The notes below the pieces were generated by a model, which had not been told where the DNA came from, searched no databases, and saw only the letters and a program-made list of their open reading frames with translations. A program made the translations under genes and the position numbers. From contig NZ_JABRXF010000001.1 of the NCBI RefSeq assembly GCF_013266695.1, positions 1,057,236-1,121,235 of the forward strand: a DNA stretch of 64,000 nucleotides, in the 5' to 3' direction. Numbering within the stretch: position 1 is the stretch's first letter; each line of letters opens with the position of its first letter. Origin of the DNA: Hongsoonwoonella zoysiae (GTDB lineage Bacteria > Pseudomonadota > Alphaproteobacteria > Rhizobiales > Stappiaceae). This document shows positions 59,592 through 63,622 of this stretch, piece by piece.

Positions 59592-61073
59592 TCAGGCATT
59601 CGATGCCGAATGCGGGCGGAAGGCCACGACCGTCAGATCGTCGAGACGGGGTTCGTTGCGCGAATAATCGTTCAGCCGGGATTCGAGCGTGTTCAGGATT
59701 TCCCGCAGGCTTTGCGTGGCGTGGGTTTCTATCAGCTTCATCGTCCGCCTGTAGCCGAATGCGATGCGCTTTTTTCCGCCGATCTGGTCAGTCAGGCCGT
59801 CGCTCAACATGAAAAGCGAGGAATTCTCGCCGATCTCAAGAGCGGTTTCGGTAAAGCGCGGCGATTTGCGAGTGTCCGGATATCCGAGGCTTATTCTGTC
59901 GCCCTTTATGCGCTCCACCTTTCCGTCCTTCAAATGCAGAAGGGAAAGCCGCGCACCGGCGAATACCGCCTTGCCGGTCGCGGCATCGATCTGGCAGATC
60001 GCGGCATCCATGCCGTCGTTCGACGAGGCCTCTTTCGTATCCTGGTTGAGAAGGCCGCGGGTCAGGTCGCTCAACAACGTCAGGATCGTTCCCGGCGTCA
60101 GGCTTTCGTTTTCGGTAAAGATCCGCTCAAGCGTGGCAATGGCGAGCATTGTCATGAAGCCGCCCGGAACGCCATGGCCCGTGCAGTCGAGGAGCGCGAC
60201 CGTCGTTCGTTTCCCGCTGGAAAAGATCCAGTAGATATCGCCGCCGACAAGGTCGCGCGGCTGCCAGATAACGGCGGCTTCGCTGAACGCCGCCGCGATC
60301 TGTTCCTGTGTGGGCAGCAAGCCCCGCTGAATGCGGGTGGCATATGTCACGCTGTCCAGAATGGCCTTGTGCGCCTCCCGGATTTCGCTCACCCGCTCGA
60401 CCTCCCGGTCAAGCATCATGTTGTAGCTTGCCACCACCTTTCCGATTTCGTCCTCTGCCCTGTAATCGACTTTCTGCGGATCCCCGTGCCGCTCAAAGCT
60501 TTCGATGGCGCCCAGCATGAGAGAGAGGGGGCGGTTTATGAACCAGAGGAAAGCGGCGACACCGGCAAGCGTCAGCGCAAGGCCGCCTGCAACGCCGAGC
60601 GCCACCAGCACGAGAAATTCATTGCGCAGGTCCATCGCCAGCTTGTCGGGATCGATCCGCACATGCATTCGAGCATCCTTGCCCACAAGGGGAAGGGGCA
60701 CTTCGAGCGACCGGCCGGTTTTCTGGATGCGCGTGCAGCCGATAACGGGCCATGAAGCGGCCGGCGCCTCGTTTGCGGCAATATGCAGGTCAGCGCAGAT
60801 GACATAGTAGAAGGCGGCGAAGATCGACAGCAGCTCGCGCGCTTCTGCCGGTTCGCCCCTCTGCGCGAGCCATGCGGCGGGACCGGCGACGCGGTTCGAG
60901 ATCGTAGCGATTTCGGCCGCAATCTCGCCGGTCTGTTCCGCTTGTCGTTGCTGGTAGTAGAAGGTAAGGATCAGGGAATTGAGCGCGACGCCAATCAGGA
61001 TCGTCGCCAGGATATACTTGAAGAATATCCGGCGGCGCACGAGCCTTGCAACTCCCGCTGCCGGCACTTTCAC
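59592..61073 (-). CDS. SiaA-like membrane PP2C phosphatase
   Basis: 493 aa. Topology: membrane helix 17-40, periplasmic loop about 41-151, helix 152-178, HAMP-like linker about 179-232, then a SpoIIE-type PP2C domain (about 245-490). The metal Asp residues are in LVGGDIYWIFSSGKRTTVALLDCTGHGVPGG (Asp279, Asp296) and in SLFMLSDGLTDQ and LDDLTVVAF. In Pseudomonas SiaA dephosphorylates SiaC and so activates the output enzyme. The mature architecture matches SiaA; the name is inference from the gene neighbourhood. It lies 5 bp after the small secreted protein gene. Confidence 0.88.
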   Translation of the reverse strand: MKVPAAGVARLVRRRIFFKYILATILIGVALNSLILTFYYQQRQAEQTGEIAAEIATISNRVAGPAAWLAQRGEPAEARELLSIFAAFYYVICADLHIAANEAPAASWPVIGCTRIQKTGRSLEVPLPLVGKDARMHVRIDPDKLAMDLRNEFLVLVALGVAGGLALTLAGVAAFLWFINRPLSLMLGAIESFERHGDPQKVDYRAEDEIGKVVASYNMMLDREVERVSEIREAHKAILDSVTYATRIQRGLLPTQEQIAAAFSEAAVIWQPRDLVGGDIYWIFSSGKRTTVALLDCTGHGVPGGFMTMLAIATLERIFTENESLTPGTILTLLSDLTRGLLNQDTKEASSNDGMDAAICQIDAATGKAVFAGARLSLLHLKDGKVERIKGDRISLGYPDTRKSPRFTETALEIGENSSLFMLSDGLTDQIGGKKRIAFGYRRTMKLIETHATQSLREILNTLESRLNDYSRNEPRLDDLTVVAFRPHSASNA

Positions 61074-61078
61074 GGGCC

Positions 61079-61456
61079 CTACTTGCCGAGCTTGGAGATC
61101 GCGCCCTGAACGGCCTGGCGGTTGTCCATGATCAACTGGACGACCTTGTACTGGTCATCGATGCGGCGGACGAGAAAGTCGGCATTGATGGACTTCCCCG
61201 CGTCGTCGATCATCTCCGAGCAGACGAAATAGTCATCCCCCATGGTGACGATAAAGGGATGAACATTTGCGGGGTAAACGGTTTTTAAAACGCCTTCCTT
61301 GGTGTCGACATAGCTGTATCCGCCGTCAACCAGGATCGATTCAGTGAATTGCAACATTGCTGATTGCAACTCAACCTGAAATTCGGTGCTGAGTTCTTCT
61401 GATTTAACCGGAAAAATCGCCAACCAAGCGAAGACGAGGAGTGCGAACATTCTCAT
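61079..61456 (-). CDS. Small secreted protein upstream of the SiaA-like gene
   Basis: 125 aa from ATG 61456 (ATG 61471 is also in frame). The first ~20 residues (MRMFALLVFAWLAIFPVKSEE) are a signal peptide. The remainder is a soluble mixed-fold domain with SILVDGGYSYVDTKEGVLKTVYPANVHPF and a single late cysteine; no family recognised, though some such proteins are annotated as DUF-type periplasmic. It is first in the minus-strand transcript with the phosphatase, so a periplasmic ligand or sensor for it is plausible. Confidence 0.75.
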   Translation of the reverse strand: MRMFALLVFAWLAIFPVKSEELSTEFQVELQSAMLQFTESILVDGGYSYVDTKEGVLKTVYPANVHPFIVTMGDDYFVCSEMIDDAGKSINADFLVRRIDDQYKVVQLIMDNRQAVQGAISKLGK

Positions 61457-61471
61457 TTCTACGACCCTCAC

Positions 61472-61586
61472 GTCTTAGACTGTTTTTTATGTTATCATTT
61501 TCTTTCATGCACGGCGAGCTTGGAATTGGCCGACGCTGCGGACAGCAACTTGTTTACGCGCGCAATATCCGACCCGGAGTACGCGA
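61472..61586. promoter_or_regulatory. Divergent promoter region of the sia-like locus
   Basis: 115 bp separate the two transcripts. It contains an AT-rich stretch (about 61482-61508) fitting for overlapping -10 elements, but I could not assign a clear -35/-10 pair. The GGAG ribosome site of siaB lies at its right end. Confidence 0.4.
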
Positions 61587-62153
61587 ATGCTTGCAAGTGA
61601 ACTTTACGGGTTGAGAAAGGATTTGCGTGAGCGCGGAATAGTCTTCGCCTATAGCGGCTATGTGACTGAAAACGTCCTGAGCGGCGTGGGCGATGCGCTG
61701 AAGAAGAAACTTGCCATCGAGGATGCGGATACGCGGACCATCCGCAGCGTTTTTGCCGTTTTCGTGGAGCAGATGCAAAACATCATCCGCTATTCGGTGG
61801 AGCAGCTCCCGCCTCCCGACATTCCGGAAGCGCAGGAACACCCTGCTGAATTGCGCTATGGGATTCTGACGATCGGGCAGGAAGGGGCGGACTACGTCGT
61901 TCATGCCGGTAACCTTGTGAGAACGTCCGACGTGCCGCGCATGCGCGAGCGGCTTTCCGCCATTCAGGCGATGAATCGCGAACAGTTGAAATTCGCCTAC
62001 AAGGAACAGCTGCGCAGCGGCCCGGGCGAGAACAGCAAGGGCGCGGGCATCGGCTTCATCGAGATCGCCAGGCGCGCTTCGAGCCCGATCGAGTTCGATT
62101 TCATGAATATCGACGGGAAGCTCGCCTTCTTCGCGTTGAAAGCTAAGATCTGA
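61587..62153 (+). CDS. SiaB-family protein kinase (DUF6272)
   Basis: 188 aa; GGAG precedes ATG 61587. The order of helices and strands and the motifs ELYGLRKDLRERGIVFAYSGYVTENVL, VFAVFVEQMQNIIRYS and KGAGIGFIEIARRASSPIEFDF match the SiaB family, with a degenerate GHKL ATPase fold; NIIRYS corresponds to the N-box and KGAGIGFIEIAR to the glycine lid. In Pseudomonas SiaB phosphorylates SiaC. It lies 12 bp before the SiaC-like gene. Confidence 0.87.
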   Translation: MLASELYGLRKDLRERGIVFAYSGYVTENVLSGVGDALKKKLAIEDADTRTIRSVFAVFVEQMQNIIRYSVEQLPPPDIPEAQEHPAELRYGILTIGQEGADYVVHAGNLVRTSDVPRMRERLSAIQAMNREQLKFAYKEQLRSGPGENSKGAGIGFIEIARRASSPIEFDFMNIDGKLAFFALKAKI

Positions 62154-62165
62154 GCGGGGGTGGAT

Positions 62166-62555
62166 ATGGAAAATCTCGAGATTCCAGCCTCGACGCGCAC
62201 GCCCGCAGTTGCGTTCGACTTTGCCAGGCACCACCTCAAGATCAGTGGAGAATCCTATCCCGAGGACGTGACGAGCTTCTACACACCCTTGTTCGATGCG
62301 CTCGATATTTATCTGGAGGGGCGCGTGGATGGCTCATGCCGGTTCGATTTCGAGCTGATCTACTTCAACTCGAGTAGCGCCAAGGCGATCATGATGCTGA
62401 TGGAAAAGCTGGATGAGGCGGCGAAAGCCGGCATGAACGTCGATGTCCACTGGTTCTACGACCCGCAGGACGAGACGATGCACGAACTGGGCGAGGAATT
62501 CGGCGAAGATCTTCAGCATGCCGCATTTCACCTCGAGAGCATTCCACGCCGATGA
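62166..62555 (+). CDS. SiaC-family regulatory protein (DUF1987)
   Basis: 129 aa from ATG 62166. DUF1987 pattern: TRTPAVAFDFARHHLKISGESYPEDVTSFYTPLFDALDIYL and FDFELIYFNSSSAKAIMMLMEKLDEAA. The phosphosite in Pseudomonas SiaC is a Thr (T68) in the matching strand; here the tract is NSSS (Ser69-Ser71), so phosphorylation would fall on a serine. SiaC acts as a phospho-switch that binds the output enzyme when dephosphorylated. Its stop overlaps the cyclase start (ATGA), showing tight coupling. Confidence 0.87.
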   Translation: MENLEIPASTRTPAVAFDFARHHLKISGESYPEDVTSFYTPLFDALDIYLEGRVDGSCRFDFELIYFNSSSAKAIMMLMEKLDEAAKAGMNVDVHWFYDPQDETMHELGEEFGEDLQHAAFHLESIPRR

Positions 62556-63622
62556 CGACCGACGATCTGTTCGCCAGGGAAGAAAAGGTTATCGCCGCGG
62601 CGGAAAGCCGGCTCGCCGAAAATCCGCCTGATGATGGGGAAAACCGCGCTGCCTTCGAAAGGCTGCTTTCCGAATACCGCAAGCTCTTCAAGACGACCCG
62701 GCGAATGATGCGCCTGAGCGACCGCAACGAGCGCGAACTCAACGCATTGGCCGAGCAGCGCCAGAAGGCGGCCGACGAAATCTCTCGCAAGAACCACGAG
62801 TTGGAAGCGCTTTCGGTAAAGCTGTCCAAATACCTTTCGCCGCAGGTCTATGGATCGATCTTTTCGGGCCAGCAGGAGGTGAAGCTTGCAAGCCGGCGCG
62901 AGAAGCTGACGGTGCTTTTTTCCGATATCGCCGGCTTCACCGAACTGACAGACAAGATGGAATCAGAGGATCTCACCCTCCTCCTCAACCAGTATCTGAC
63001 CGAAATGTCGCGCGTCGCGCTCGAATTCGGGGCGACGATCGACAAATACATCGGCGACGCGATCATGATTTTCTTCGGCGATCCGGAAACGCGCGGCGTG
63101 CGCGAGGATGCGCTCGCCTGCGTGAAAATGGCGATCGCCATGCAGGCGCGCCTGCAGGACCTTCAGGGCGAGTGGCACGACCAGGGTCTTCGCGAAGCGC
63201 TTGCCTGCCGTATCGGCATCAACACCGGCTATTGCACGGTTGGCAATTTCGGCAGCGAAGACCGCATGGACTATACGATCATCGGCGGCGCGGTGAACGT
63301 CGCCTCGCGCCTTGAGCATGAAGCGGGCGCCGGCGAGATCTATATTTCCTATGAAACCTACGCCCATATCCGTGACGAGGTGGAATGCGAGGAAATCGGC
63401 TCGCTGCGGGTCAAGGGCGTCGCCTATCCCGTCACCGTCTACCGGGTGGTGGGGCTTGCGGGCGAGGCCGAACGCTCCCGCAGGATCGTTGCCGACAGTC
63501 CCCATTTCCGCATGCATATGGAGCCTGAAAGAATGGGCCCGGACGAGCGGGAGGAAAGTGCCGCGCTCCTGCGCAGGGCCCTCGCTGCGCTGGGCGAGCA
63601 GGCGGGAAAAGAACATCCGTAA
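62552..63622 (+). CDS. Class III adenylate cyclase with N-terminal coiled coil
   Basis: 356 aa. Residues 31-95 form a heptad-like coiled coil; a cyclase domain follows (about 112-300). Metal Asp125 (FSDIAGFTEL) and Asp169 (KYIGDAIMIFFG) are present. Lys165 and Asp240 (MDYTIIGGAVN) are the purine-specifying pair of adenylate cyclases, and Asn249 and Arg253 (NVASRLE) are the catalytic pair, so ATP to cAMP is predicted. It occupies the position of the diguanylate cyclase siaD in Pseudomonas; the coiled coil is where SiaC would dock. No membrane helix. Confidence 0.9.
   Translation: MTTDDLFAREEKVIAAAESRLAENPPDDGENRAAFERLLSEYRKLFKTTRRMMRLSDRNERELNALAEQRQKAADEISRKNHELEALSVKLSKYLSPQVYGSIFSGQQEVKLASRREKLTVLFSDIAGFTELTDKMESEDLTLLLNQYLTEMSRVALEFGATIDKYIGDAIMIFFGDPETRGVREDALACVKMAIAMQARLQDLQGEWHDQGLREALACRIGINTGYCTVGNFGSEDRMDYTIIGGAVNVASRLEHEAGAGEIYISYETYAHIRDEVECEEIGSLRVKGVAYPVTVYRVVGLAGEAERSRRIVADSPHFRMHMEPERMGPDEREESAALLRRALAALGEQAGKEHP

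Follow-up and report, generated by a model that had tools for sequence, protein, structure and literature searches.

The window, a stretch of 64,000 nucleotides from Hongsoonwoonella zoysiae (Alphaproteobacteria; contig NZ_JABRXF010000001.1, positions 1,057,236 to 1,121,235), carries at 59592-63622 five genes that we read as a SiaABC partner switch with an adenylate cyclase as its output, addressed through a SiaC-receiver helix that would be portable among dimeric enzymes. We put the probability of this reading at about 0.78. It predicts that one phospho-switch is routed to cyclic adenosine monophosphate (cAMP) instead of cyclic di-guanosine monophosphate (c-di-GMP), and it names the docking helix and its residues, which makes the swap and its specificity testable with small purified proteins. 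An earlier note on this DNA had proposed that SiaABC is wired to an adenylate cyclase, as a change of output messenger. The wiring gains support from a SiaD-type SiaC-binding helix on the cyclase, from the sole receiver and sole SiaC found in the genome, and from recurrence of the arrangement. The predicted change of messenger stands in so far as a cyclase replaces GGDEF, but not as a one-off replacement of SiaD, given the clade in which the module falls and the at least five output classes that carry the receiver. A literature search gave no paper linking SiaC to adenylate cyclase by its title or the start of its abstract, and a published remark is possible.

The SiaC-receiver helix and the parts of the proposed switch

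The cyclase gene (62552-63622, forward strand, 356 amino acids; Pfam, PDB, AlphaFold2) begins with a SiaC-receiver domain at residues about 2-78 (62555-62785, forward strand), predicted to be helical from receiver profiles and the model, with the core motif RLSDR at residues 54-58 (62711-62725, forward strand), which in the alignment is equivalent to R80-I81-S82-D83-R84 of SiaD. According to the portion of PMC8457831 that was available, SiaC sits on the SiaD stalk in the crystal and touches residues from R74 to D91, including R80, I81, S82, D83, R84 and Q86, the SiaC phosphosite lies in a part inserted between the stalk helices, and phosphorylation of Thr68 prevents binding to SiaD. A hidden Markov model (HMM) built from 40 GGDEF-partner N-termini alone matches all cyclase (9/9), kinase (4/4) and GAF (5/5) partners and 9 of 17 then-unclassed partners, at E 4e-8 to 6e-18; the remaining 8 of the 17 were frames beside siaC and not receivers. 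Its other matches to E 10, GGDEF frames and second copies aside, were a cyclase (L075) and, in L026, a truncated frame with which a receiver kinase (L145) begins. A second receiver profile, A1 (32 rows, made without the eight two-motif SiaD loci L035, L040, L041, L045, L049, L054, L057 and L079), was compared with 177,635 PDB sequences and had SiaD of the SiaC-SiaD complex 7e6g as its first match (E 2e-6, or 5e-4 for the best stretch alone), aligned on the SiaC-contacting residues, and the next PDB match lay at E 0.024. The window receiver scores 59.0 bits, against 12.4 bits for the best of 2000 shuffles, and the Asp of the motif is invariant in 138/138 partners. By these comparisons the N-terminal helix of the cyclase and the SiaC-clamped stalk of SiaD are homologues.

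The catalytic domain (residues 114-296, 62891-63439, forward strand), delimited by Pfam, alignment to CyaB and the model, matches Guanylate_cyc (PF00211, E 2.5e-27), and its nearest solved structure is the adenylyl cyclase CyaB (3r5g, E 5e-70, 56% identity, 107/190 residues). In the AlphaFold2 model two helices (3-23 and 29-92) precede the catalytic fold, for which CyaB is again the best PDB match, and hydropathy gave no hydrophobic segment in the window cyclase. Asp125, Lys165, Asp169, Thr242, Asn249 and Arg253 fall in conserved blocks of the alignment; we take Asp125 and Asp169 to be the metal ligands, Lys165 and Thr242 the pair that recognises the base, and Asn249 and Arg253 the Asn/Arg pair. 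The base-recognition pair of class IIIb adenylate cyclases is Lys/Thr, and with PF00211, two metal Asp, the Asn/Arg pair and the Lys/Thr pair the protein has the class IIIb signature, provided the residue roles are as we assume. The predicted substrate is adenosine triphosphate (ATP) and the predicted product cAMP, as the earlier note had it from a Lys165/Asp240 pair, of which the alignment retains Lys165 and exchanges Asp240 for Thr242. A guanylate cyclase was judged unlikely with Lys165 present and CyaB nearest, yet the structural matches include Cya2, a guanylyl cyclase of solved structure.

The siaB-like gene (61587-62153, forward strand, 188 amino acids) encodes a serine/threonine kinase with a DUF6272 match (E 5e-42), a score above the NCBIfam model SiaB_fam_kinase (NF038262), 6kko_A as its nearest solved structure (E 1e-20), and an ExxxN box (61-65) and a glycine-rich box (152-157) that presumably have their usual roles. 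The siaC-like gene (62160-62555, forward strand, 131 amino acids; Pfam, NCBIfam, PDB, homologues) matches PF09345 at E 6e-40 and has 6kko, 6kkp and 7e6g as nearest structures (E 5e-19); its homologues suggest ATG 62166 as the likely true start rather than GTG 62160. The protein has Y-F-N-S-S where the P. aeruginosa counterpart has Y-L-N-T-S, so the predicted phospho-acceptor in the site N70-S71-S72 is Ser71 (codon 62370-62372, forward strand; Ser69 if counted from ATG 62166), equivalent to Thr68, and not a Thr. The Asn of this motif is kept in 138/138 paired SiaC rows, and many SiaC residues that contact SiaD in the crystal are kept in the window SiaC. The siaA-like gene (59592-61073, reverse strand, 493 amino acids; Pfam, NCBIfam, PDB, hydropathy) encodes a membrane PP2C (SpoIIE) phosphatase with two clear hydrophobic segments (about 16-40 and 149-180) and a weak third near 81-100, a HAMP-like linker whose HAMP match is under its cut-off, and a PP2C domain at 287-486 (SpoIIE match E 5e-21); the nearest solved structure is the SiaA PP2C domain 6k4e (E 1e-40). 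When the alignment is compared by eye, the catalytic Asp/Gly positions of PP2C, as named in the available part of PMC7647112, are kept.

The coordinates of the open reading frames agree with the earlier note on the places of all five genes, on the divergence of siaA and a small-protein gene from the siaB-siaC-cyclase group, and on the overlap of 4 base pairs (62552-62555) in which the cyclase ATG runs into the siaC stop, and Pfam together with the closest PDB chains named above bears out its PP2C, SiaB, SiaC and class III cyclase. The locus thus holds a SiaC-family protein with N-[ST]-S, a DUF6272 kinase, a membrane PP2C with its metal-binding Asp residues, and an output protein whose SiaC-binding stalk is recognised by homology only.

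Output partners of SiaC and their history

Partners were assigned by custom profiles, for 20 proteins with Pfam as a check, and a receiver was counted as adjoining when it lay on the same strand at most 1600 bases from siaC. SiaC was found in 11/87 genomes of the window's own family (both cyclase cases belong to the window's genus), in 14/385 genomes of the class sample, 13 of them over the cut-off, and in 54/397 Pseudomonadota genomes of the phylum sample, 53 of them over the cut-off. The tally of cyclase against GGDEF neighbours that the earlier note had suggested comes to 2 against 9 in the family, 3 against 8 in the class (beside the 13, with kinase making up 2) and 8 against 25 in the phylum sample. 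In this last sample, where 67 SiaC matches minus the weak partial ones of G256 and G526 leave 65 loci, the receiver is further found on GAF/HD proteins at 14 and on kinases at 4, and one locus is without SiaB.

SiaC is widespread: a single scan gave no fewer than 583 matching stretches, and the best 80 of these, selected for likeness to the window SiaC and thus biased to its kin, have a kinase at 23, GGDEF at 21, a cyclase at 15, GAF/HD at 9, none at 9 and no scored SiaB at 3. These named loci overlap with the phylum sample (e.g. L192 and L052), so the counts are not additive, and the second copies L001, L011, L016, L017, L019, L020 and L023 together with the sub-threshold L024 were dropped before the tree, the covariation and the partner tally. 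Cyclase-coupled named loci come from four Ruegeria, Methyloceanibacter marginalis, Microvirga massiliensis and Azospirillum canadense, and from metagenome-assembled genomes (MAGs) labelled as Granulosicoccaceae, two other gammaproteobacterial, two Magnetococcales, one deltaproteobacterial, one Pseudodesulfovibrio and one Helicobacteraceae. Modules coupled to a cyclase are found in several classes of proteobacteria and, going by the MAG labels, in other phyla too.

The SiaB and SiaC tree, made by a quick method from 159 loci that redundancy reduced to 109 rows, with four long branches flagged, places the window in a clade of eight rows, all cyclase-coupled, with Ruegeria nearest and a Shimodaira-Hasegawa-like approximate likelihood ratio test (SH-aLRT) support of 95. 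The cyclase label needs 10 changes on this tree, at least 5 of them forced by well supported branches, compared with 17.8 in shuffles, and outputs have thus been exchanged repeatedly. We rejected an exchange of output within the family to which the window belongs, because the GGDEF-coupled SiaBC of that family, from 9 of the 11 SiaC genomes among 87, form a separate clade.

Receivers also occur away from siaC, on SpoIIE phosphatases (L143, L144 and L155 by Pfam; L147, L149, L150 and L152 by profile only) and on hybrid histidine kinases (L145, L156), so that the receiver has been found on GGDEF, class III cyclase, histidine kinase, GAF/HD and PP2C domains, at least five output classes. In G538, G559, G524 and G552 one SiaC has SiaB but no adjoining output gene, with another SiaC also present; these four SiaC form one clade (L030, L033, L043, L065), and each of the four genomes has an unlinked receiver-cyclase (L153, L151, L148 and L154) that would be addressed in trans by SiaC. 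The four are close kin and not independent cases. The check for PilZ covered three of the cyclases, L148, L153 and L154, which have a receiver, a class III cyclase domain and a C-terminal PilZ match (Pfam); such cyclases may respond to c-di-GMP as well as to SiaC.

Some further loci vary the arrangement. The gene after siaC at L028:1398-2021 encodes a hemerythrin-domain protein whose first residues are receiver-like but have no SDR motif, and a Rhodocyclaceae MAG (L231:6387-8257) has, by profile, two receiver genes in tandem behind siaC, one for a histidine kinase and the other for a GGDEF protein. In a Magnetospirillum group (L171, L173, L174, L180, L183, L184, L185, L189, L190) siaB-siaC is, by profile, preceded by a histidine kinase and followed by a receiver histidine kinase, and no PP2C gene was found in the stretch. 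In the 4.4-Mb window genome (G000), four of the 33 class III cyclase matches cluster at C1:251745-262398, and at C2:474801-475646 about 190 bases on one strand separate a cyclase match from a match for a domain binding cyclic nucleotide monophosphates (cNMP); both fall in a frame of 440 amino acids and probably represent the fusion of a cyclase with a domain for cyclic nucleotides.

Proposed mechanism and its alternatives

The comparisons strongly support a chain that runs from phosphatase and kinase through SiaC and the receiver helix to the cyclase dimer. SiaB would phosphorylate SiaC on Ser71, and SiaA, perhaps with the secreted protein as its input partner, would dephosphorylate it upon envelope disturbance. 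Unphosphorylated SiaC would then dock on the RLSDR receiver helices and hold two cyclase chains as a parallel dimer in which the class III active sites form, so that cAMP is made, while phosphorylation of SiaC would block docking and halt cAMP synthesis. Most likely, then, unphosphorylated SiaC switches the cyclase on, a sign that is carried over from SiaD.

This sign could be reversed, with the same wiring, if SiaC binds but inhibits the cyclase or if it is phosphorylated SiaC that activates. If the GAF/HD partners break down c-di-GMP, they suggest that a rise in second messenger is no necessary result of docking, and in the literature consulted, as far as its accessible text goes (including PMC8457831 and PMC7278518), the sign of control is reported just for the GGDEF case of P. 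aeruginosa. We nevertheless find the opposite sign unlikely, since the phosphosite lies in the part of SiaC that is inserted between the stalk helices (PMC8457831, available in part). This part is kept in each output class, and phosphorylation should therefore prevent docking in the window's system as well. The natural way to switch on a class III cyclase is, moreover, to hold it as a parallel dimer.

It is far less probable that the N-terminal helix is a generic coiled-coil or signalling-helix linker and that SiaC regulates something else. The model predicts a plain helix, and coiled-coil linkers are common in such enzymes. Among 397 genomes SiaC was found in 54, a receiver in 51, both in 50 and neither in 342; up to 14 receiver candidates from a first look were scored per genome (14 of 49 in the window's own), so weak receivers may be missed. 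The receiver occurs in 1 of the 343 genomes without a SiaC match (G640, weak, E 1.9e-4) against 50 of the 54 with one, where it was not found in G256 (SiaC below cut-off), G513, G526 (weak SiaC match) and G592. Profile A1 comes largely from SiaC genomes, so the presence of the receiver there is partly by construction, but its absence elsewhere is not.

Receiver columns also covary with SiaC. The set has 138 SiaC-receiver pairs (effective 91), with statistics that are not corrected for relatedness, and the interface (SiaC 64-82 and 100-115, stalk 70-92) follows the description of the crystal and was fixed after the first ranking had been seen. Of the top 20 column pairs, 10 lie inside the interface with 1.5 expected, a number equalled by 9/7106 label shifts. 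GGDEF partners alone (63 rows) give 7 of the top 20 with 1.4 expected (103/6099 shifts), and the set without them (75 rows) gives 6 of the top 20 with 1.4 expected (81/7175) and 13 of the top 40 with 2.8 expected (40/7175). For the 19 contact pairs listed from the available part of PMC8457831, the right register has the highest mean among 25 registers (0.029). Stalk position 85 varies by class, the commonest residue being Met in GGDEF, Asn in cyclase, Leu in kinase and Ser in GAF/HD partners, and is a candidate specificity residue in a comparison that ignores relatedness. On the co-occurrence, this covariation and the PDB match to SiaD in complex with SiaC, with the motif Asp invariant, the generic coiled coil was rejected. 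That cyclase and SiaABC are chance neighbours, with the cyclase independent of the switch, is hardly credible even in a genome with 33 class III cyclase matches, and was rejected for the 4-base-pair overlap, the same gene order in G005 and four Ruegeria, the recurrence in other lineages and the single receiver found in the genome.

Besides the sign of control and the limits of the covariation set, several results weigh against an adenylate cyclase under a SiaABC switch. The cyclase model is a single chain from 16 alignment rows, with a mean predicted local distance difference test (pLDDT) score of 77.8 and a predicted template modelling (pTM) score of 0.54. In cyclase and GAF/HD partners alone (48 rows) the covariation is not significant, with none of the top 10 pairs at the interface, 2 of the top 20 (1.4 expected) and 5 of the top 40 (2.7 expected), and two wrong registers in the test of 19 pairs come close (0.027 and 0.024). 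By the rule used, 13 of the 65 phylum-sample loci are without an adjoining receiver. The window receiver has one SDR motif and SiaD two, so the stoichiometry may differ. The NCBIfam scores lie under the equivalog cut-offs, at 209 of 700 bits for SiaA, 114 of 225 for SiaB and 96 of 150 for SiaC, and we therefore speak of family members and not of orthologues; as the last gene is a PF00211 cyclase and not a GGDEF SiaD, this is not SiaABCD in the strict sense.

With the same docking helix present on at least five kinds of enzyme, the switch has the look of a general signalling module that can be plugged into different outputs. We think it likely that SiaC and its receiver form a general phospho-Ser/Thr signalling currency, in a role comparable to that of the two-component receiver domain, with the window as the simplest cAMP form. 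One SiaC-binding helix would have been grafted repeatedly onto unrelated outputs that work as dimers, i.e. diguanylate cyclase, adenylate cyclase alone or with PilZ, histidine kinase including hybrid ones, GAF/HD and PP2C, and in some cells several receivers could be addressed in trans by one or more SiaC. If so, one motif predicts the upstream regulator for many kinases, cyclases, HD proteins and phosphatases.

The small protein and comparison with known systems

Directly upstream of siaA on the same strand lies a gene for a small protein (61079-61471, reverse strand, 130 amino acids) in which the Pfam search gave no family. The secretion claimed for it in the earlier note is probable, from a hydrophobic N-terminus seen by hydropathy. 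The 115 base pairs between the two gene groups (61472-61586) are by position the presumed promoter region. Homologues of the small protein adjoin the phosphatase in G005, in the four Ruegeria and in two more remote loci with a coupled cyclase (L088, L089); at the threshold used none turned up in the other fetched loci, many of which are too short to show one. P. aeruginosa SiaA is reported, in the available part of PMC12834913, as a sensor of membrane perturbation, and the small protein may be an extracytoplasmic partner of SiaA. The window genome has 11 cNMP-binding matches.

With SiaABCD of P. aeruginosa, as described in the accessible parts of PMC8457831, PMC7647112 and PMC7278518, the window shares the PP2C phosphatase, the DUF6272 kinase, SiaC and the R-x-S-D-R stalk, but its output is a class III cyclase and not GGDEF, its phosphosite Ser and not Thr, its SDR motif single and not double, its layout divergent with a small secreted protein, and its SiaA shorter (493 amino acids against a model of 658 positions). 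Catalytic positions are common to the window cyclase, CyaB of P. aeruginosa and CyaC of Spirulina (1wc1), but in the window a SiaC-receiver helix precedes the catalytic domain and no hydrophobic segment was found. The PP2C/kinase/STAS circuits predicted in Campylobacterota (PMC9239204, as far as available) likewise set phosphatase, kinase and phospho-carrier genes beside a second-messenger enzyme, but c-di-GMP turnover is proposed for them, and the cAMP pathway there is separate, with FecR-domain and TPR proteins. In HsbA-HsbD and BgrV-BgrR, too, a partner-switch protein governs how active a second-messenger enzyme is, with STAS proteins in the place of SiaC and diguanylate cyclases as outputs (PMC8457831, same portion).

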